From Synergistaceae bacterium (GTDB lineage Bacteria; Synergistota; Synergistia; Synergistales; Aminobacteriaceae), in NCBI GenBank assembly GCA_017444345.1, contig JAFSWW010000104.1, positions 1-34,131 of the forward strand: a stretch of DNA of 34,131 bases, given 5' to 3'. Both the position numbers and the translations under genes were made by a program. Under the pieces are notes generated by a model. That model was not told the DNA's origin and did no database searches. It saw only the letters and a program-made list of their open reading frames with translations. Shown here one piece after another: positions 9,506 through 30,802 of this stretch (the stretch's first letter is position 1; every line of letters starts with the position of its first letter).

Positions 9506-9769
9506 ATTTATAGAAATTTGCAAGAAAATATCATTAATGGCTGCTCACACAAATAACGGGATTTATAGAAATTTGCAGGAAATTATTATTAGTCGGCACT
9601 CACGCAGAATATTTATATAAATTTGCAGAAAATATTATTAATGTCTGCTCACATAAATAACGGGATTTATAGAAGTTTGCAGGAAATTATTATTAGTCGG
9701 CACTCACGCAGAATATTTATATAAATTTGCAGAAAATATTATTAGTGTCTGCTCACATAAAATAACATG
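9506..9769. repeat. Tandem array of five 50-55-bp units in two alternating types
   Basis: Units start at 9506, 9561, 9611, 9665 and 9715, each opening with ATTTATA followed by AAATTTGCA or AAGTTTGCA. Units 2 and 4 end in GGCACTCACGCAGAAT (50 bp). Units 1, 3 and 5 end in CTGCTCACA plus AATAAC (54-55 bp). This makes a higher-order period of about 104 bp. Units are contiguous, with no spacers. I see no reading frame. The array lies between the mazG promoter region and the promoter of the FAD oxidoreductase. Confidence 0.9.
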
Positions 9770-9883: not shown

Positions 9884-12091
9884 TTGAATGTAATCAAGAA
9901 ATTAGCAGTTATTACAATATTAATATTTATGACTTCTACGACTTCACACGCAAGAATGACACTTACACCGCGAACAAATTACGATATTATTATAGCAGGA
10001 GCAGGAACAGGCGGAATATCTGCAGCAATTCAGGCCGCAAAAATGGGAGCTTCCGTCTTAGTCGTTGAACCGTCTTCCATGATAGGAGGCCAAGCAATCG
10101 CCGCAGGAGTCTCAACTGTAGACGACAAAAGCCGGCAAATGAGCGGAATATATCTCGATTTCTATAACCGCCTGAAAAATTATTATGACTCGCGCGGCAA
10201 ATCAATGGGAACATGTTATTGGACTTCTCAGACTGTAGCATTTGAACCCAGAATCGGCCATGAAATTTTATTTGACATGATAAATGACGCAAGCCGCAAA
10301 AATAATCTTGATTTATTATTGAACTCTGAAATAATAAGCCTTAAAATCGGCAATAAATCAATTTCCGGAGTCAGCGTTAAGACTCAATCAGGGAAGCGCG
10401 ATTATACCTGCAAAGTTTTAATTGACGCTACAGAATACGGCGATATGTTACCGCTTGCAAGAATAAATTACAGAGTCGGCAACTCTGAAGCAAAATTCTA
10501 TAATCCTGAGTCAATGATTCAAGATATAACGTGGACGGCTGTAATCCGCAAATATCCCAGCGGAGTCCCTGCATATTTAAGGCCGTTATATCCTTTGCCC
10601 GGTTATGAACTCGCTAAACGAAATTATGAGGCATTTGTAAGTAAAGACGGTGCTAATTTCCGCAATGTCTTCCCGATTGAGACTCCTGTAAATTTTCTTA
10701 CTCATAATGCATACAGGGGGCTGCCTGACTCTTCTAATCCATATAACTATAATGCAGACGCTCAAAATCGAGTATACATCACGAAAACTAGCATAAACTG
10801 GGGCAATGATTACCCCGGGACTTATTCATGGGAAGGCAAAAGGGGACTCCCTGCGGCATATCTTGAAGACAAAAATTTTAGACTCCAAATTGAGCGCGAG
10901 GCATTAATTAAGACTCTCAACTTTATATATTACATGCAAAACGAACTCGGCGAGGACTGGTCAGTAGCTGATGACGAATATTATAATCAAGTTTTACCGG
11001 AAGCAGCAAAGACTCTCCCATATGAATGGCAGGAAATAGCCCGCAGAATGCCCCCGATTCCCTATGTAAGAGAGTCAAGACGAATAATTAATAAAAATTT
11101 TACTCTGACATCACATGAATTACTGCAAAATTCTTTGAGTTACAGGGACGGACGCACGAGCCATGAATTTTATGACGCAATCGCAATCGGAGGCTATATA
11201 TTAGACCTTCACGGAGCTACTAGAGACGCAGATATGGAATGGGATTTTAACGAGCGTGAACAGTCAATGATAACGAACAGACCCCGCGGCCCCTTTCAAG
11301 TTCCCATGCGAATATTAATCCCCGACGGAATTGACGGACTTATTGCAGCAGAAAAAAATTTATCAATGACTCGTTTAACTTCAGGAGCTCTGAGACTACA
11401 GCCTATAACAATGATGACCGGCCAAGCAGCAGGAGCTTTAGCAGCTTTGAGCGCACGAGACAATAAAGCACCCCGTTTTATTCACCCGATGAGAGTCCAG
11501 TGGGAATTATTAAATTCAGGAGTAAATCTCTCACTCTGCAAATATTCAGACGTTCCCCCCGAACATGAATTAAATAAAACTATTCAAATATCAAACATGT
11601 ATGGATTCTTGCCTGCAAAAGAATATCCGCACGCGCCTTCTTATAATATTGAAGACAGGGACGATCCTGTTTTAGCAATGGCACTTATTCGCGGACATGA
11701 TAAAGGAGTTTTCGGGCTTGATGAGTTAATTACTAGACGGGACGCAAAAGAAATTATTAACAAGGCTCAAAAAATTTTATCAGTCTCAAGTCAAGATAAT
11801 AAAACGGGAATAAATAACAAACTTGATAATTATATTACACGCGGAGATTTTATCAGGGCAATATGTGAGGCATTCCCGCGAATTTCAGAAGCTCCAGCAC
11901 CTAAACGCTATAGAATCCCGTTCAAAACAGGCTCTCACAGGAATTCAGAATATGTGAATATTTTAGCAAAACTGGGAATTCTTGACATTTACAGGAATGA
12001 GAGAGAATTTCATTACGGGCGGCCGGTTACTAAGGCTGAAGCGGCTGATATAATCGTGAAGTCTTGTATAATTATTTCTGCTCTGCATTAA
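9884..12091 (+). CDS. Exported FAD-dependent oxidoreductase with SLH-like C-terminus
   Basis: Starts at TTG, 12 bases after GGGAGG; the nearby ATG at 9888 is followed at once by a stop. An N-terminal signal peptide (hydrophobic residues 7-18, SHA cleavage region near 23) indicates export. Residues 33-65 form an FAD-binding Rossmann motif (YDIIIAGAGTGGISAA, then VVEPSSMIGGQ), as in the FAD_oxidored family (PF12831). A second conserved block, RMPPIPYVRESRRI, is typical of that family. From about residue 555, repeats resembling S-layer homology modules appear (YSDVPPEH, ITRRDAKEII, YITRGDFIRAI, PVTKAEAADIIV). This suggests attachment to the cell wall or envelope. The substrate is unknown. It stands alone, flanked by its own promoter and the flagellin gene. 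Confidence 0.8.
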   Translation: MNVIKKLAVITILIFMTSTTSHARMTLTPRTNYDIIIAGAGTGGISAAIQAAKMGASVLVVEPSSMIGGQAIAAGVSTVDDKSRQMSGIYLDFYNRLKNYYDSRGKSMGTCYWTSQTVAFEPRIGHEILFDMINDASRKNNLDLLLNSEIISLKIGNKSISGVSVKTQSGKRDYTCKVLIDATEYGDMLPLARINYRVGNSEAKFYNPESMIQDITWTAVIRKYPSGVPAYLRPLYPLPGYELAKRNYEAFVSKDGANFRNVFPIETPVNFLTHNAYRGLPDSSNPYNYNADAQNRVYITKTSINWGNDYPGTYSWEGKRGLPAAYLEDKNFRLQIEREALIKTLNFIYYMQNELGEDWSVADDEYYNQVLPEAAKTLPYEWQEIARRMPPIPYVRESRRIINKNFTLTSHELLQNSLSYRDGRTSHEFYDAIAIGGYILDLHGATRDADMEWDFNEREQSMITNRPRGPFQVPMRILIPDGIDGLIAAEKNLSMTRLTSGALRLQPITMMTGQAAGALAALSARDNKAPRFIHPMRVQWELLNSGVNLSLCKYSDVPPEHELNKTIQISNMYGFLPAKEYPHAPSYNIEDRDDPVLAMALIRGHDKGVFGLDELITRRDAKEIINKAQKILSVSSQDNKTGINNKLDNYITRGDFIRAICEAFPRISEAPAPKRYRIPFKTGSHRNSEYVNILAKLGILDIYRNEREFHYGRPVTKAEAADIIVKSCIIISALH

Positions 12092-13938: not shown

Positions 13939-14026
13939 TGCGGAGGGGGAGAATCGAACTCCCACGATGCTTAAATTGATCACAAGATCCTTAGTCTTGC
14001 GCGTCTACCAATTCCGCCACCCCCGC
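13939..14026 (-). tRNA. tRNA-Leu with anticodon AAG
   Basis: An 88-nt class II tRNA. The acceptor stem pairs 14026-14020 (GCGGGGG) with CCTCCGC (one G-U). The D arm reads GGCGGAATTGGTAGACGC. The anticodon stem CAAGA/TCTTG encloses the loop CTAAGGA, giving anticodon AAG. A long variable arm has a 4-bp stem, and the T arm is GGGAG/CTCCC around TTCGATT. The discriminator is A, and CCA is not encoded. Bacterial leucine tRNAs usually carry GAG here. AAG leaves A at wobble position 34, which would read CUU and, if converted to inosine, further CUN codons. Confidence 0.93.
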
Positions 14027-14138: not shown

Positions 14139-14933
14139 ATGTCAAAATTTATTATTTCATTATTAAGTATATTTCTTGCGTCCGTGTCATTTGCGGGAGA
14201 AGTCGAAATTATTTCATTGCTTGACGTTCAGGGCGATGGGAAGCCGGAATTATTAATCGGAGCCAGCGAGTCGCAATTAAAGCAATATTTACCGGCGGGC
14301 AAAATGCCGAGTCAAATTCTAGCATATTTCGTGAAGGTCAACAATCAGGGAATATTATTCGACACGGGACTAAGCGACGGCCATATAGTTAAGGAACTCG
14401 CAAAGAATAATATCAAGCCTGAAGACGTGAAAATCATAATGCTGACTCATTTACATCCTGACCATTTCGGGGGATTGATCGACAAGCAGGAAAAGCCGGT
14501 ATTTCCGAACGCTGCTATTTATATTTCTGAAATTGAGCGCGATTACTGGGTAAATGACAAGCGGGACGAGAAAGTTTTGACGGCACTTGAGCCATATAGT
14601 GAACAGATTGATTTTTTCAAGTTCGGCGATGAGGTAATCAAGGGAGTGAAAGCTCTTGACGCTTCAGGACATACACCGGGCCACACAGTTTTTGAAGTCG
14701 GCAATAAGGAAAAAATTTTAATAGTCGGCGATATAATGCACTTTCCGGAGATTCAACTGCCCTGCCCTAATGTTTCAGTAAAATATGACACTGACCCGGA
14801 CAAAGCGAGAGAGTCAAGAATCAAAATTTTAGATTATGCAGCGAAGAATAATTTAACTATTGCGGGAATGCACATAACACCGCCGGGAATTTGCAAGATA
14901 ATAAAATCAGGTTCAGGCTACGAGAAAAAGTAG
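14139..14933 (+). CDS. Exported metallo-beta-lactamase-fold hydrolase
   Basis: A 264-residue MBL-fold protein with an N-terminal signal peptide (hydrophobic core about 4-16, cleavage near SFAG), so it probably acts outside the cytoplasm. The metal motif THLHPDHFGG (HxHxDH) is at about residues 108-117. It is followed by GHTPGHT, the bridging Asp in VGDIMHF, and a final His in GMHITPPG. This is the full ligand set. The arrangement resembles lactonase-like MBL proteins, but the substrate is not predictable from sequence. A good GGGAGG site precedes the ATG. It is monocistronic, with a hairpin terminator after it. Confidence 0.82.
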   Translation: MSKFIISLLSIFLASVSFAGEVEIISLLDVQGDGKPELLIGASESQLKQYLPAGKMPSQILAYFVKVNNQGILFDTGLSDGHIVKELAKNNIKPEDVKIIMLTHLHPDHFGGLIDKQEKPVFPNAAIYISEIERDYWVNDKRDEKVLTALEPYSEQIDFFKFGDEVIKGVKALDASGHTPGHTVFEVGNKEKILIVGDIMHFPEIQLPCPNVSVKYDTDPDKARESRIKILDYAAKNNLTIAGMHITPPGICKIIKSGSGYEKK

Positions 14934-14947
14934 TGAATAAAAATTTT

Positions 14948-14990
14948 GCCCCGTGTTTAATAAATAAATGCGAATAAATGTGGGGCTTTA
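14948..14990 (+). terminator. Terminator of the MBL-fold gene
   Basis: GCCCCGTGTTT (14948-14958) pairs with AAATGTGGGGC (14976-14986) over 11 positions including three G-U pairs, then a short T run. It directly precedes the next promoter. Confidence 0.65.
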
Positions 14991-15026
14991 TGCTATAATT
15001 TGCGAAAAATTTACGTATTAGGAAGG
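14991..15026 (+). promoter_or_regulatory. Extended -10 promoter and ribosome-binding site of the glycosyltransferase cassette
   Basis: TGC-TATAAT at 14991-14999 is an extended -10 element. An AT-rich leader follows, with AGGAAGG at 15020-15026. The best-spaced start codon for this site is TTG at 15037-15039 (10 bases), not the ATG at 15056 (29 bases). The same layout recurs at 26597, 29358, 20551 and 20711. Confidence 0.7.
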
Positions 15027-15055
15027 ATTGACAACTTTGACCGATAATTTGTATA

Positions 15056-16096
15056 ATGGCTCACGGCTCACGGCTCACGGCTCACGAGGTAGGTTCTGTC
15101 CAGTTTTCTATAATTGTCCCGGTTTATAATTGCGAGAAATATTTAAATAAGTGCTTAGACAGCCTTTGCAATCAAGATATTTACACCCTCACGAACTCAC
15201 GAAATTATGAAATTATCATAGTAGATGACGGCTCAACGGATAAGAGCCCGGAAATTTGCGATTCTTACGCTGAAAAGTTTTCATTTATTCATGTAACACA
15301 CACGGAAAATCACGGAGCAAGCCACGCAAGAAATACAGCATTAAAACAATGTCAGGGCAATTATATAATGTTTTGTGATTCAGATGATTTTGTCTCGCCG
15401 CAGTTAATTTCTTTAATGACTCGAACTGTTGAACTTGATAATCAGGCCGATATGTTTATATTCAAATATTTTAATAATAAATTGCCTGCTGATAAATGGC
15501 CGGATTATAATATTTCTGATATAAAAATTTCTGACTGGGTGAATATAACAAGCGATAAATTATGCTTTAAAGTCTTAAATAATGACAATATAGGCGGCTT
15601 TCTATGGAATAAAGTTTATAAACGAGAAATTTTGCAGGGACATTATTTTGACGAAAATATACGTGTTTTGGATGATCAGCCTTGGGTTATTGAGTTATTA
15701 TGTATTCATAAAAATATGCGTATATTCTGCCTGAATTATTATTTATATTGTTATGTTCGTCATAATCAATTCGGTCAAACTAGAGATCCGAGAATGATTT
15801 ACGATAAAAACGGGTTGAGCTGGTTTATAATTGCACTTGAGAAAGAATTAACTATAAAAAATTTACCGCCGTTAATGCACGAACAGATAGAATATGCAAT
15901 GTACTACTGGGCAACATGTAATTATTATCAGGCCGGGAATCTCATGACTGACGAAACGCGCGAGAAAGTAAAATTTTTATTGCGTAAATATGCGCTGAAA
16001 TATTATTTCAAGTCCGGCTATTCTCTATGGTCAAAAATAAAATCTTTTATCAGGCACATATTAATAACGTTTCACATATACAAGAAATATAAATAA
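15056..16096 (+). CDS. Family 2 glycosyltransferase with repeat-encoded N-terminus
   Basis: GT-A fold transferase that moves a sugar from a nucleotide-sugar to a glycan acceptor. In the 346-residue frame the catalytic domain begins at FSIIVPVYN (about 17-25). The nucleotide-binding DDGSTD is at 57-62, NHGASHARN at about 85-93, and the metal-binding DSDD at 108-111. A C-terminal basic helix could bind membrane. Residues 1-10 come from four 7-bp repeats. In the present phase the only in-frame start is ATG 15056, which lacks a ribosome-binding site. The well-placed TTG at 15037 is in a different frame and stops after about 30 codons. Losing one repeat, or gaining two, would join TTG to this frame. 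Current expression is probably low or off. Confidence 0.85.
   Translation: MAHGSRLTAHEVGSVQFSIIVPVYNCEKYLNKCLDSLCNQDIYTLTNSRNYEIIIVDDGSTDKSPEICDSYAEKFSFIHVTHTENHGASHARNTALKQCQGNYIMFCDSDDFVSPQLISLMTRTVELDNQADMFIFKYFNNKLPADKWPDYNISDIKISDWVNITSDKLCFKVLNNDNIGGFLWNKVYKREILQGHYFDENIRVLDDQPWVIELLCIHKNMRIFCLNYYLYCYVRHNQFGQTRDPRMIYDKNGLSWFIIALEKELTIKNLPPLMHEQIEYAMYYWATCNYYQAGNLMTDETREKVKFLLRKYALKYYFKSGYSLWSKIKSFIRHILITFHIYKKYK
15058..15085 (+). repeat. Four tandem 7-bp repeats (GGCTCAC) inside the glycosyltransferase start
   Basis: Perfect GGCTCAC x 4, starting within the ATGGC of the annotated start. The unit is not a multiple of three, so slippage changes the downstream frame, as in bacterial contingency loci. 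Confidence 0.9.
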
Positions 16097-23334: not shown

Positions 23335-23386
23335 TTTGCCCCCTTTGCCCCCTTGTTTGTAATAATAATTTCTATGATATACGCCC

Positions 23387-23709
23387 GCTCGTAATTATTC
23401 GCAAATATTCACGAAAATTTTTATTCCCGCCTATTATTGCAAGCTGCCTAATAAATTATATGCCCGTTCGTAAAATATCGCTGTCTCACTTGTTATAATA
23501 ATGCGCCCGTCCGTTGTCTTAATGTGTAAAAATTATATTGCTAGTTCGTAAAATATCGCCTTATCATGTTAAATGCTGTCTCGCTCGTAATTATTCGCAA
23601 ATATTCACAAAAATTTTTATTCCCGCCTGTTGTTGCCAGCTGCCTAATAAATTATATGTCCGTTCGTAAAATATCGCTGTCTCACTTGTTATAATAATAT
23701 GCCTGTCCG
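23387..23709. repeat. Two direct repeats of 127 bp, 196 bp apart, with a partial third
   Basis: Copy 1 is 23387-23513 and copy 2 is 23583-23709. Both open with GCTCGTAATTATTCGCAAAT, contain TTCGTAAAATATCGC and CACTTGTTATAATAAT, and differ at only a handful of positions. A fragment repeating TTCGTAAAATATCGC lies between them (near 23543). The 477-bp divergent spacer 23335-23811 has no gene. The repeats sit upstream of both the CobU-like gene and the metal importer. Confidence 0.88.
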
Positions 23710-23750
23710 TAATTATTCCCGTAAATTCTCGCTTTAACACTATAAAAATT

Positions 23751-23778
23751 TTGTCTCACTCATTTTATCAAGTATAAT
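23751..23778 (+). promoter_or_regulatory. Probable promoter of the metal importer operon
   Basis: TTGTCT at 23751-23756, a 16-bp spacer, and TATAAT at 23773-23778, followed by AGGAG at 23797-23801 before the TTG start at 23812. I see no convincing Zur, Fur or MntR palindrome. Confidence 0.55.
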
Positions 23779-23811
23779 AGCTTAAAATCTTTATTTAGGA
23801 GTAAAATTTGT

Positions 23812-26596: not shown

Positions 26597-26634
26597 TGAT
26601 ATAATTCAAGAAAATAAATTTTCAGCAATAGGAG
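26597..26634 (+). promoter_or_regulatory. Extended -10 promoter and ribosome-binding site, FkbM cassette 1
   Basis: TGA-TATAAT at 26597-26605, then an AT-rich leader and AGGAG at 26630-26634. Starts at proper distance are TTG 26637 and GTG 26643, in one frame; GTG has the better spacing (8 bases). Confidence 0.7.
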
Positions 26635-26642
26635 TGTTGACA

Positions 26643-26768
26643 GTGCCAAAATTTTCTGACATAATTGGCTTCACGGCTTCACGGCTTCACGGCTTCACGG
26701 CTTCACGGCTTCACGGCTTCACGGCTTCACGGCTATTGTCATATCCTTTTAGCATATCACAAGAATAA
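26643..26768 (+). other. Leader reading frame 1 with repeats, currently short
   Basis: From GTG 26643 (MPKFSDIIG) the frame runs through the 8-bp repeats as an octapeptide repeat GFTASRLH. With eight repeats it exits into LLSYPFSISQE and stops at 26766-26768. The alternative exit frame, used by cassette 2, stays open to 27069 and overlaps the FkbM start. Whether the leader peptide itself functions is unknown. It may control translation of the gene downstream. Confidence 0.5.
26667..26730 (+). repeat. Eight tandem 8-bp repeats (GGCTTCAC), cassette 1
   Basis: Perfect GGCTTCAC x 8, followed by a partial GGCT. Sixty-four bases is one more than a multiple of three, so the frame leaving the repeats differs from that of cassette 2, which has six copies. 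Confidence 0.95.
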
Positions 26769-27011
26769 TTCACACACAAGACTAACAAGAATAAATAAAA
26801 TTTTTTTGTTTTCTCGTGAAATTTGCGAGGGAGTATTTTTTTGTCCTGATTTATTGCTGAAAGATTGCGAGTTATTTTGCGAACTTGGCGGGGCTCGTAA
26901 AAATTTGCTGCTGAAAATTTGCGGGATATTCTATAAAACTTGCTGCAACTCTCTCAAAAAATTTTATTCCATCATTCACAAAAATTTTTATATCATGGAG
27001 GACTGTTTATT

Positions 27012-28112
27012 ATGGGACTCAAGAAATTTGTCAAGAAAAATGCTCCCGACTGGCTATTACCTTTTTTGAAAGCAAGCTATATGACTGTGAAATTTCCTTA
27101 TACTCTTATTCATAAACGTAATATAATAGCTCGTGCTGAAAAATTAAGGCCGTATTATCGTGATGAATTATCGCGCTTGATTTTATCTGATAGAGAAAAA
27201 CTTTTATTGACTAATGACGAAAAAATTTTTATTGATCGTGCAGTAAAACAAGGCTGGAAATTTTACCCTTCATACAATCACTCACATATTTTAGTTATAT
27301 ACGATGACAAGAATAGCAAAAATTTTGATTATACGATGAAATTTATACAACTTTCGGGCTTATCTGATAAGTCAAGGACTCTATCTCTTGATAAATTCAT
27401 GAAAGACTCTAATATTATGGAAGATGAACTAATTATAATTGTTATGAGCAAAAAGAGTCGCGCAAAATTTCTTGATTATGCATGTAAGAAGAATTTATTT
27501 TATAAGCATAATTTTTTTATTGGTAATTTATCATCAGGACGAGAAGACATACAATATTTTGATGTATTTGACCCAGTCGACAATGAAATTATAATAGATG
27601 CTGGCTGTTATGATGGTACGACAGCAAAACAATTTTTAGAGTGGGCTGGCGATAGAGTCAAAAAAATTTACTCGTTCGAATTAGACCCTATCAATGCGGC
27701 CAAGTGTGAAGAGAATCTAAAAGATTTACACGATAAAGTTACTCTCATTAAAAAAGGTACATGGGACAAAGATGAGACAATATATATAAATGCGTTAGGC
27801 GATATAGCCAGTTCTATGATAAATGAAGGAAATGATATTGCTTATCTCACGTCAATAGATTCTGTAGTGAAAGATGAGCGCGTTACATTCATAAAAATGG
27901 ACGTTGAAGGCGCGGAGCTTAAATCTTTAATCGGTGCAAAGAATACTATAATCAAGAATAAGCCCAGACTCGCAATTTGCGTGTATCATAAGGCCGAAGA
28001 TATTTACGAAATTCCCGAATATATATTATCGCTCGTGCCTGAATATAGATTTTATCTGCGTCATTATTCTTCAGCTGGCCCTGAAACAGTTTTATATGCA
28101 AGCTGCGATTAA
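27012..28112 (+). CDS. FkbM family SAM-dependent methyltransferase, copy 1
   Basis: A 366-residue protein. The C-terminal half is an FkbM-type class I methyltransferase: the SAM-binding EIIIDAGCYDGTTAKQFL near 195-212, SFELDPINAAKCEENL, TSIDSVV, and the family signature FIKMDVEGAELKSLIGA, followed by PRLAICVYHKAEDI. Such enzymes O-methylate sugars or related groups, often on surface glycans. The first 170 residues are less conserved. I start at ATG 27012, 10 bases after GGAGG; a longer in-frame start at 26940 lacks support. A 420-bp leader with promoter and 8-bp repeats precedes it. It is a close paralogue of the gene at 29714. Confidence 0.83.
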   Translation: MGLKKFVKKNAPDWLLPFLKASYMTVKFPYTLIHKRNIIARAEKLRPYYRDELSRLILSDREKLLLTNDEKIFIDRAVKQGWKFYPSYNHSHILVIYDDKNSKNFDYTMKFIQLSGLSDKSRTLSLDKFMKDSNIMEDELIIIVMSKKSRAKFLDYACKKNLFYKHNFFIGNLSSGREDIQYFDVFDPVDNEIIIDAGCYDGTTAKQFLEWAGDRVKKIYSFELDPINAAKCEENLKDLHDKVTLIKKGTWDKDETIYINALGDIASSMINEGNDIAYLTSIDSVVKDERVTFIKMDVEGAELKSLIGAKNTIIKNKPRLAICVYHKAEDIYEIPEYILSLVPEYRFYLRHYSSAGPETVLYASCD

Positions 28113-28165
28113 ATAAATAATTGAGCTCTCTTAGTGTAAAATATTTTCTCAGGAGGGCTCATAAA

Positions 28166-28705
28166 TTGAACATAAAAATTTTATTCGATTTATTTATAAC
28201 TTTTGCGAAAATCGGCGCGGTAACTTTCGGGGGCGGTTATGCGATGTTAATGATTTTATTGCGTGAGGTCGTCGAAAAAAAGCACTGGGCAGCGGAGCAG
28301 GAACTAACAGACTATTACGCAGTCGCACAATGTACTCCCGGGGTTATTGCCGTGAATGTCGCTACTTTTATAGGCAAAAAACAGGCTGGAATTATGGGCG
28401 GGATAATTGCAACAATCGGCGTAGTATTTCCGTCAATTATAATAATTTCACTCTTATCGGGAATAATTCACGCTTATTCTGAACTCGAATGGGTGAGACA
28501 TGCATTTGCGGGAGTCCGTGTCTGTGTGTGTGTGTTAATATTTAATGCTGTCTTGAAAATTTTTAACTCGGCTATAATTGACAAAATCACGCTTTGTATT
28601 TATATATTAATTCTTGCCGGGACAATATTATTTAAAGTATCACCGATTATATTAGTCGTTCTTGCCGGCGCGGCTGGCTTGCTTATAAAGGGGTTGAATA
28701 AGTAA
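28166..28705 (+). CDS. Chromate transporter half-protein, first of pair
   Basis: A ChrA-family membrane protein of 179 residues (half-size, short-chain type). FAKIGAVTFGGGYAML at the start carries the family FGGG motif, followed by VVEKKHW, YYAVAQCTPGVIAVNVATFIG (the second conserved PG block), and about five or six hydrophobic helices. Start is TTG 28166, 9 bases after AGGAGG; an upstream in-frame TTG (28121) would place that site inside the gene. Short-chain members work as pairs. Some export chromate, but in anaerobes the true substrate is often unknown. It directly joins its partner. Confidence 0.85.
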   Translation: MNIKILFDLFITFAKIGAVTFGGGYAMLMILLREVVEKKHWAAEQELTDYYAVAQCTPGVIAVNVATFIGKKQAGIMGGIIATIGVVFPSIIIISLLSGIIHAYSELEWVRHAFAGVRVCVCVLIFNAVLKIFNSAIIDKITLCIYILILAGTILFKVSPIILVVLAGAAGLLIKGLNK

Positions 28706-29260
28706 ATGCTATATATAAAACTTTTCTGGGAATTCTTTAAGACTGGCCTATTTGCAGTCGGCGGAGGGATGGCAACACTTCCATTTTTATATGATATATC
28801 AGACAGGACAGGCTGGTTTACTCATGAACAGTTAGCGGACATGATAGCAATTTCTGAATCGACTCCGGGGCCGATCGGTGTAAACATGGCGACTTATGCG
28901 GGCAAATTGACTGCGGGATATTCGGGGGCAATCGTTGCGACTCTGGGATTAATTACTCCGAGCTTGATAATTATATTAATTATTGCTGCGTTCCTTCAGG
29001 CTTTCAGGACAAATAAATATGTCGATTCAGTTTTTTACGGAATGAGACCGGCCAGCACTGCAATGATTACGGCTGCATGCTTTCTCGTTGCTAAAATTGT
29101 ATTTATTCAAGACGGGCGATTTCTTAATATAAACTGGGACTCGGTTGATTTGGCTGTGTTATTATTAATGTTCACTCACACTGTAAAATTCACTAAAAAA
29201 TTTCACCCTGTTATTTGGATAGCTTTGTCGGCTTTAATCGGCGTTATATTCAAATATTAA
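28706..29260 (+). CDS. Chromate transporter half-protein, second of pair
   Basis: A 184-residue ChrA-family protein, the partner of the preceding gene, with zero gap. It shows FWEFFKTGLFAVGGGMATLPF, then DMIAISESTPGPIGVNMATYAG, and about five or six transmembrane helices. The two halves presumably form a heterodimer with inverted topology, as known for short-chain pairs. A terminator follows. Confidence 0.86.
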   Translation: MLYIKLFWEFFKTGLFAVGGGMATLPFLYDISDRTGWFTHEQLADMIAISESTPGPIGVNMATYAGKLTAGYSGAIVATLGLITPSLIIILIIAAFLQAFRTNKYVDSVFYGMRPASTAMITAACFLVAKIVFIQDGRFLNINWDSVDLAVLLLMFTHTVKFTKKFHPVIWIALSALIGVIFKY

Positions 29261-29267
29261 ATAAAGG

Positions 29268-29310
29268 CGGACAGGGATTTATTTATTCATTCTCTGCCCG
29301 TATTTGTTTT
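29268..29310 (+). terminator. Terminator of the chromate transporter pair
   Basis: CGGACAGGGA (29268-29277) pairs with TCTCTGCCCG (29291-29300) with one mismatch and one G-U, followed by TATTTGTTTT. The stem sequence is nearly the same as that at 30809-30838. Confidence 0.75.
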
Positions 29311-29357
29311 CTTGAATAAATTTTCCCCGTTAATCTGGCAAAGTTTTTAGTTAGTTA

Positions 29358-29395
29358 TGATATAATGCGATAAAATAAAATTTCAGCAGAAGGAG
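29358..29395 (+). promoter_or_regulatory. Extended -10 promoter and ribosome-binding site, FkbM cassette 2
   Basis: TGA-TATAAT at 29358-29366, an AT-rich leader, AGGAG at 29391-29395, then GTG 29404 at 8 bases. It is almost identical to the module at 26597. Confidence 0.7.
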
Positions 29396-29403
29396 TATTG
29401 ACA

Positions 29404-29751
29404 GTGCCAAAATTTTCTGACATAATCGGCTTCACGGCTTCACGGCTTCACGGCTTCACGGCTTCACGGCTTCACGGCTATTGTCATATCCTTTTAGCAT
29501 ATCACAAGAATAATTCATATACAAGAATAACAAGAATAAATAAAAATTTTTTACTCCGTCGTGTATTTTGCGAGGGGGTATTTTTTTGTCGTGATGATTT
29601 ATTGCTGAAATATTGCGAGTTGTTATATGAAACTTGCTGCTACTCACTCATTTATTCAGTAATTCACAAAAATTTTATTAATAATTTTATTTTATGGAGG
29701 ACTGTTATTTATTATGGGTCTCAAGAATTTTGTCAAGAAACATTGTCCTGA
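29404..29751 (+). other. Leader reading frame 2 with repeats, currently long
   Basis: From GTG 29404 the frame reads MPKFSDII, then two rounds of GFTASRLH. With six repeats it continues through GYCHILLAYHKNN to a stop at 29751, 38 bases inside the FkbM gene in another frame. The equivalent stretch in cassette 1 is conserved but is out of frame with its GTG. No known domain is recognised. Confidence 0.5.
29428..29475 (+). repeat. Six tandem 8-bp repeats (GGCTTCAC), cassette 2
   Basis: Perfect GGCTTCAC x 6 plus a partial GGCT. Forty-eight bases is a multiple of three, so the leader frame is preserved. Confidence 0.95.
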
Positions 29752-30802
29752 TTTCTTATATTCATTCGCAAAAAGTTGTTATTGGTTTTATCATAGAAAA
29801 ATGATGGCTCAGGAAGTAATAACACGTGCTGAAAAATTGCGTCCGTATTATCGTGATGAGTTATCGCTATTTATCTTGTCTGAACGAGAGAAATATTTAT
29901 TAACTCATGACAGAAATATTTTTCTTGATATAGCAATAAAACAAGGCTTGAAATTTCATATATCTTTCAGTAATTCTTATATCTTGATTATATATGAATG
30001 CAAAAGCCATAAATTTGATTATACAATAAAATTTTTTCAGGCTTCTGATTATGCTGATAAATACAAAACTTTAACGATTGATGAATTTATGAAGAGCCCA
30101 TCGTTAAATGAAAATGAGTTAATAATTCCTGTCATGAAATACAAGAATCTAAATAAATTTTTGCGCTTTATGTATGATAAAAATTTACTGTATAAGACTA
30201 ATATCTTTTCTGGAGGACTAGGATCAGGACGAGAAGACCTACAATATTTTGATGTATTTGATCCAGTTGACGATGAAATTATAATTGATGCGGGGTGCTA
30301 TGACGGAGCAACAGCAAAACAATTTTTAGAATGGGGCGGCGGTAAAGTCAAAAAAATTTACTCGTTTGAATTTGACCCAGTCAACGTGGCCAAGTGTGAA
30401 GAGAACCTAAAAGATTTACGCGATAAAGTTACTCTCATTAAAAAAGGTACATGGGACAAGGACGAAATTTTGCACATAAATGCGTCAGGAGGAGTTACAA
30501 CGTCTACATGTAATGAAGGAAATAGCACAGTCTATCTTACTAAAATAGATTCTGTTGTCAAAGACGACCGAGTCACACTAATAAAAATGGACGTTGAGGG
30601 AGCCGAGCTAAAATCTTTAATCGGTGCAAAGAATGCTATAATCAAGAATCACCCCAGACTCATAATTTGCTTTTACCATAAACCTGAAGACATGTATGAA
30701 CTCCCTGAATATATATTATCGCTTGTGCCTGAATATAGATTTTATTTGCGTCATTATTCTTCTTCGCCGTCTGAAACAGTTTTATATGCAAGCTGCGACT
30801 AA
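29714..30802 (+). CDS. FkbM family SAM-dependent methyltransferase, copy 2
   Basis: A 362-residue paralogue of the gene at 27012, with the same SAM-binding EIIIDAGCYDGATAKQFL and signature LIKMDVEGAELKSLIGA, then PRLIICFYHKPEDM. Start ATG follows GGAGG by 13 bases. The C-terminal 200 residues are nearly the same as copy 1, while residues 15-165 differ much more. This suggests the two may act on different acceptors, or that the C-terminal halves have been homogenised by gene conversion. It has its own promoter and repeat-bearing leader and ends at a hairpin. Confidence 0.83.
   Translation: MGLKNFVKKHCPDFLYSFAKSCYWFYHRKMMAQEVITRAEKLRPYYRDELSLFILSEREKYLLTHDRNIFLDIAIKQGLKFHISFSNSYILIIYECKSHKFDYTIKFFQASDYADKYKTLTIDEFMKSPSLNENELIIPVMKYKNLNKFLRFMYDKNLLYKTNIFSGGLGSGREDLQYFDVFDPVDDEIIIDAGCYDGATAKQFLEWGGGKVKKIYSFEFDPVNVAKCEENLKDLRDKVTLIKKGTWDKDEILHINASGGVTTSTCNEGNSTVYLTKIDSVVKDDRVTLIKMDVEGAELKSLIGAKNAIIKNHPRLIICFYHKPEDMYELPEYILSLVPEYRFYLRHYSSSPSETVLYASCD

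Follow-up and report, generated by a model that had tools for sequence, protein, structure and literature searches.

Does a short tandem repeat across the start of a glycosyltransferase gene in a member of the Synergistaceae act as a phase-variation switch, and in which state is the gene found? The gene lies in a 34,131-nucleotide stretch of DNA (the window), which is one contig (C104) of a 2.33-Mb assembly of 141 contigs. A first-pass annotation, made from the sequence alone, had described an extended -10 promoter, the Shine-Dalgarno (SD) sequence AGGAAGG, a TTG codon at 15037 and four GGCTCAC units ahead of a glycosyltransferase frame, and had read these as a phase-variable surface sugar transferase that is probably off. 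From comparative sequence we infer that positions 15028-15086 very likely form a tandem-repeat translational phase-variation switch for this GT2 gene, although switching itself has not been demonstrated.

Architecture of the glycosyltransferase start region

All of the elements named in the first-pass annotation are present (Table 1), and the catalytic frame is that of a glycosyltransferase. With its PF00535 domain (Table 1) and with D58, D108, D110 and D111 invariant among relatives, the gene belongs to GT2. Its paralogues in the same genome are 55% and 51% (contig C111) and 56% (contig C38) identical to it. The GGCTCAC array contains an exact period-7 run of 22 bases; when the window was reshuffled 100 times under a first-order Markov model, the longest such run was 11.

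Table 1. Features of the three proposed switch regions in the window.
Feature	Position	Strand	Comment
P1, extended -10 TG-C-TATAAT (TGCTATAAT)	14991-14999	+	Likely promoter of the transcript with SD and start codon
Shine-Dalgarno AGGAAGG	15020-15026	+	
P2-like motif TTGACA-N18-TATAAT	15028-15057	+	Overlaps start codon; 12/12 sigma70 consensus; TTGACA 15028-15033, TATAAT 15052-15057
TTG start codon, proper SD spacing	15037-15039	+	Out of frame with the glycosyltransferase in the present assembly
ATG in glycosyltransferase frame, without SD	15056-15058	+	Possible weak alternative start
Tract GGCTCAC x4.14	15058-15086	+	Read as phase-variation tract
GT2 catalytic region (frame of ORF 15056-16096)	15087-16096	+	PF00535, E = 6e-37
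Second switch block	26600-26665	+	Extended -10 TATAAT 26600-26605, SD 26630, TTGACA 26637, GTG 26643, CATAAT ending 26665
Tract GGCTTCAC x8.5 in leader ORF	26667-26734	+	GTG frame off the long leader frame (OFF)
Terminator-like hairpin and T7 tail within leader ORF	26807-26835	+	13 pairs, only 3 G-C
FkbM-type methyltransferase gene, second switch	27012-28112	+	PF05050, E = 1e-11
Third switch block	29361-29426	+	Extended -10 TATAAT 29361-29366, SD 29391, TTGACA 29398, GTG 29404, CATAAT ending 29426
Tract GGCTTCAC x6.6 in leader ORF	29427-29479	+	GTG frame open to 29751 (ON)
Terminator-like hairpin, then T7, within leader ORF	29552-29580	+	-13.6 kcal/mol
FkbM-type methyltransferase gene, third switch	29714-30802	+	PF05050, E = 3e-12

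The ATG at 15056 lies 19 nucleotides from the TTG at 15037, so that four units leave the transferase shifted by one base relative to the TTG frame; a further TTG at 15028 shares the frame of 15037. As the first-pass annotation had calculated, losing one unit or gaining two brings the TTG into frame (three or six units). The glycosyltransferase frame contains no ATG, GTG or TTG from the end of the tract up to the SIIVPVYN motif. The earlier claim that the in-frame ATG at 15056 has no ribosome-binding site also held, but 'probably off' held only in the sense that the SD-linked start is out of frame, because this SD-less ATG might give weak expression. The proposal of a phase-variable surface sugar transferase is supported by the comparative data given below, with switching within a population and the role in surface glycans remaining inferences. 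What the first-pass annotation missed was the sigma70-like consensus straddling the start codon, and two further arrays in the window (26667 and 29427) with the same kind of upstream block.

Besides GGCTCAC, these two are the only arrays of at least four copies (periods 4-12) in the window. The window also holds repeats of other kinds. Within the glycosyltransferase gene, CTCACGAA occurs twice at 15188-15203, coinciding with a four-residue insertion (YTLTNS region) missing in the aligned relatives. A 104-bp intergenic repeat of a type other than the switch tracts is present in about 2.5 copies at 9506-9766 upstream of an ORF at 9884-12091, and diverged intergenic direct repeats are found at 23335-23800 upstream of a ZnuA-like gene cluster. 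A tRNA gene lies on the minus strand at 13939-14026 (Rfam RF00005).

Related tracts in the same genome

No orthologue of this exact locus was found in 42 sister species, and no second genome of the source species was found by protein and DNA search. Copy-number change at the window locus is therefore inferred from a paralogue. On contig C111, a leader closely similar to that of the window (TTGACAGTTTTGATAGATAATTTGTATAAT) carries exactly three units, and its TTG opens an uninterrupted frame of 345 amino acids that crosses the tract and continues into a GT2 domain (∼55% identical to that of the window). The window gene would be expected to enter this state on losing one unit.

The surrounding C111 block (1-2990) comprises a metallo-beta-lactamase-fold gene and, after it, two GT2 genes and is syntenic with window 14139-16096; the block is duplicated, with a tract only at the second glycosyltransferase.

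Pattern searches, which may be incomplete, recovered GGCTCAC tracts with matching leaders at C25:9933, C26:2472, C26:3607 and C111:1130. Contigs C25 and C26 end within tracts, and at four tract loci the assembly has a break or gap within the tract itself, which is no more than a hint of copy-number change. MutS-family genes are present in this genome, leaving loss of mismatch repair unsupported as a cause.

Distribution of the start module across the genus

The same arrangement recurs throughout an uncultured Synergistaceae genus, three sister genomes of which match named Synergistaceae metagenome-assembled genomes (MAGs) from goat gut. Pattern searches together with inspection yielded 61 loci with a tract. 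The TTG-type leader seen in the window, when searched for separately, was found again in the genus and brought in six more; all told, the loci come from at least 24 of 43 species. This census rests on draft MAGs, one genome per species, and is pattern-based; tRNA-Ser promoters caught by the pattern search were discarded, having neither SD nor tract. The recurring order is extended -10, SD, TTGACA, start codon, TANAAT, tandem repeat and a gene for surface-glycan synthesis. The full motif AGGA-N2-6-TTGACARTG-N14-15-TANAAT was present in 12/22 genomes of the genus versus 0/99 genomes of the order's other genera, and the reversed pattern in 0/121 genomes. Upstream, a TGnTAnAAT-type motif lies 15-75 nt 5' of TTGACA in 42/61 loci (against 1/61 and 0/45 in control stretches lying farther out), and the SD is spaced 8-10 nt from the start codon in 53/61. 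Relatives of the glycosyltransferase that have no tract (orthologues in two other species, G011 and G035, and the C38 paralogue) also have no TTGACA.

The repeat period is 7 nt in 56 of the 61 loci, 8 nt in three and 5 nt in two, and the six additional loci have period 7 or 5; no period is divisible by three, with 6 and 9 never seen. Because the 7-nt period is shared by descent, the 61 loci are not 61 independent events. Copy numbers range from 2 to about 15. The unit sequence itself has turned over between homologous GT4 genes, which retain 74-81% DNA identity and carry four different 7-nt units (CGCAGAA, AGCCAGA, CGCGACA and CGAACGC).

The genes that follow the tracts include GT2, GT4, GT8, GT56, GT-D-like, FkbM, FkbH, LicD, pyruvyl transferase, bacterial sugar transferase, acyltransferase, cytidylyltransferase, DUF4422, ATP-grasp and radical SAM proteins, together with one C-type lectin-domain protein. 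Most are typical for surface glycans, as targets of such switches should be, the role being inferred from family membership via Pfam matches.

Two TTG-type leaders with GGCTCAC in other species (L326 and L325) are apparently of the class II type described below. One tract-bearing GT2 (L063, G029:C63) is interrupted by a TAG stop inside the catalytic domain and is probably a pseudogene in that assembly.

Reading frames through the tract

The frame of the start codon is open as far as the tract in 61/61 loci, while the other two frames contain stops in 42/61 and 54/61. None of the 29 distinct units contains a forward stop codon in any frame (shuffle mean 3.2, P = 0.018), as opposed to 9/29 of their reverse complements. 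Forty-one loci have the gene joined directly to the tract (class I), and in 41/41 of these the gene frame remains open back through the entire tract. An SD-preceded start within the first 20 codons past the tract exists in only 2/41 class I loci, and on these two counts we rejected the possibility that the genes begin downstream of the tract. A conserved ATGCCCAAAATT-like stretch that follows many tracts was also considered as an ancestral start codon and rejected, its frame differing between loci.

The start codon is in frame with the gene in 16/41 class I loci and out of frame in 25/41, near the one third expected for a random frame; the in-frame share across the genus is likewise slightly above one third. 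Related loci occupy different states. C111 is in frame with three units and the window gene out of frame with four; two recent class II duplicates on one contig (G033:C36), 90% identical over 436 bp downstream, carry 7.6 units (ON) and 5.6 units (OFF); and GT8 orthologues carry 4.1-13.6 units in mixed ON and OFF states. Two marks of a contingency locus are thus met, namely a unit that is not a multiple of three in a translated 5' region (translation being inferred from the open frames and the SD) and related loci that differ in copy number and in frame state. The comparative data fit phase variation, and they speak against both a chance array and an untranslated tract.

Leader peptides ahead of the FkbM genes

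In the remaining arrangement (class II), no long ORF continues from the tract; here the tract is part of a leader peptide that terminates where the next gene starts. Past the tract, exactly one frame stays open, over about 20-110 codons, and its stop falls at that start or slightly beyond it, with junctions such as ATGA, GTGA, TAGGTG and TAATG (often RTGA), while the remaining frames stop soon past the tract in most loci. An in-frame leader that ends on the start of the next gene points to translational coupling.

Both additional switches in the window are of this class. The long leader frame of the second switch overlaps its FkbM gene, with the leader stop at 27067-27069, and the leader stop of the third (29749-29751) overlaps the start of its own. 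The two leaders, each ahead of an FkbM-type gene, are in opposite states: that at 26637 is out of frame and that at 29398 in frame. At these two and at other loci, the end point of the repeat-bearing leader peptide depends on the frame.

The two FkbM genes and their 8-bp tracts (26600-30802) appear to be a duplicated pair, 88% identical right after the tract.

Several class II leaders also contain hairpins with T tails, strong ones being those of -26.3, -26.7, -15.4 and -12.7 kcal/mol at L165, L183, L180 and L181, respectively. The hairpin in the third-switch leader (Table 1) is weaker than the strong ones, the best class I control reaching -11.5 kcal/mol; it was found by the energy-based search only and is absent from the consensus-scan list. 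That in the second-switch leader was seen by the consensus scan only, and the RNAfold search gave no stable hairpin there. Overall, a terminator-like hairpin is present in about 6/16 class II loci, with no convincing one in the rest.

A promoter-like motif around the start codon

The P2-like motif that straddles the start codon is not needed by the frame-switch model and is unexplained by it. At 11 loci that had not been found via the -10 motif, the -10 matched at 4.8 of 6 positions per locus versus 2.8 in the null, and none of 20,000 draws was as high. The motif is also kept in two frame registers (spacers of 17 and 18). Its presence in loci unselected for the -10 and in both registers makes it look like a constraint at the DNA level. 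The invariance of TTGACA cannot be judged from most loci, because TTGACA sat in their search pattern, though loci found through protein homology do carry it. The tract begins directly after the -10 in 36 loci. Position +7 past the -10 is A in 28/61, but as a test of a P2 start nucleotide (+1) this is uninformative because the position follows the repeat unit's own period.

A bolder reading makes the motif a functional second promoter. Its open complex and the first steps of transcription would then affect the tract itself, for example by raising its slippage rate or by setting transcript level, giving a dual-promoter switch with transcription-assisted mutability. We regard this as unlikely.

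Proposed mechanism and alternative explanations

The architecture, the reading frames, their recurrence, and the differences in copy number and frame between related loci are shown by the sequences; slippage within a population, the expression states and the surface-glycan role are inferred. In the model we propose, the upstream extended -10 promoter would yield an mRNA with the SD and TTG start, from which ribosomes would translate across the 7-bp repeats toward the transferase. Replication slippage would add or remove units, so that with three or six the transferase would be reached in frame and with four or five translation would stop early. Because the four-unit tract is short, the slippage rate at the window locus may be low, and the ATG at 15056, in frame at present, could possibly allow some expression. 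The start module, of which this element would be one copy among many, would switch surface-glycan genes in this genus, used either with the gene fused to the tract or, as at the two FkbM genes, with the tract in a leader peptide.

The main rival is a promoter or 5'-UTR rheostat, in which the number of units tunes the level or stability of a transcript from TTGACA-N17/18-TANAAT whatever the frame. In its favour are the significance of the P2-like motif in the unbiased subset of 11 loci, the tracts that abut the -10, and the precedent of the Haemophilus hmw1A repeats, which act via the P2 promoter and alter 5'-UTR length (PMC8262952). Against it, RNA from P2 would have neither the SD nor the start codon, with almost no SD-preceded start past the tract to replace them, and the coding constraints on leader and units would be left unexplained. 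A rheostat would also place the tract outside the coding frame, whereas every one of the 61 loci has an open, SD-started frame. We consider it very unlikely.

No more credible is constitutive expression from the ATG at 15056, with the repeats as a tolerated N-terminal extension. This ATG is indeed in frame at present and its ORF is intact, but it has no SD, the in-frame start in the three-unit C111 gene is the SD-linked TTG rather than the ATG, and an equivalent ATG is missing at most other loci. A neutral or selfish dispersed repeat that came to lie at gene starts by chance can be all but excluded. The leader is certainly dispersed, the C104 and C25 copies being 97% identical over 62 bp, yet such a repeat would not account for the strong link to surface-glycan genes, the SD and frame constraints, the absence of periods divisible by three, or class II leaders in which just one frame reaches the next gene. 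A translational phase-variation switch remains the preferred reading.

Comparison with known systems and significance

Systems of this kind are already known. The contingency loci of Haemophilus influenzae, among which tetranucleotides predominate (PMC2651432), likewise have a unit that is not a multiple of three near the start of glycosyltransferase-type genes, with the frame set by copy number, and comprise several loci per genome, in lipopolysaccharide (LPS) and glycan genes, with repeats in the 5' coding region. The Synergistaceae loci differ in their mostly 7-nt units of highly variable sequence, in the TTGACA/TANAAT that straddles the start codon and in their Synergistota host. Class II resembles pil1 of Streptococcus gallolyticus (GCAGA repeats; PMC3894217), where the frame of leader-peptide repeats sets where the ribosome stops ahead of a surface gene, and the layout matches in those several loci where a terminator-like hairpin is present. 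Unlike pil1, class I joins the gene straight to the tract, and most in-frame class II leaders end at or close to the next start codon, suggesting coupling beside or instead of attenuation. The hmw1A and hmw2A loci of H. influenzae (PMC8262952, PMC2651432) share 7-bp repeats beside a promoter ahead of a surface gene, but there the repeats lie in the promoter/5'UTR, some 70-106 bp ahead of the gene, and expression falls as repeats are added, whereas the Synergistaceae tract lies inside a translated frame. Three things appear new, namely the set of many loci, the lineage of the host and the promoter-like motif that straddles the start codon; we found no earlier report of such switching in Synergistota in the open-access literature searched.

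Most known cases of multi-locus repeat-driven phase variation are in mammalian pathogens or species closely related to them, and whether database bias explains this focus is a question raised in a 2025 review (PMC11868660). The genus described here is uncultured, and its identified members come from goat gut; it carries a large set of such switches recognisable by one sequence pattern, and the on or off state of its surface-glycan genes could for that reason be read straight from metagenomic reads. With such a readout, selection on surface glycans by phages or hosts could be tested in an environment that has yielded no cultures.
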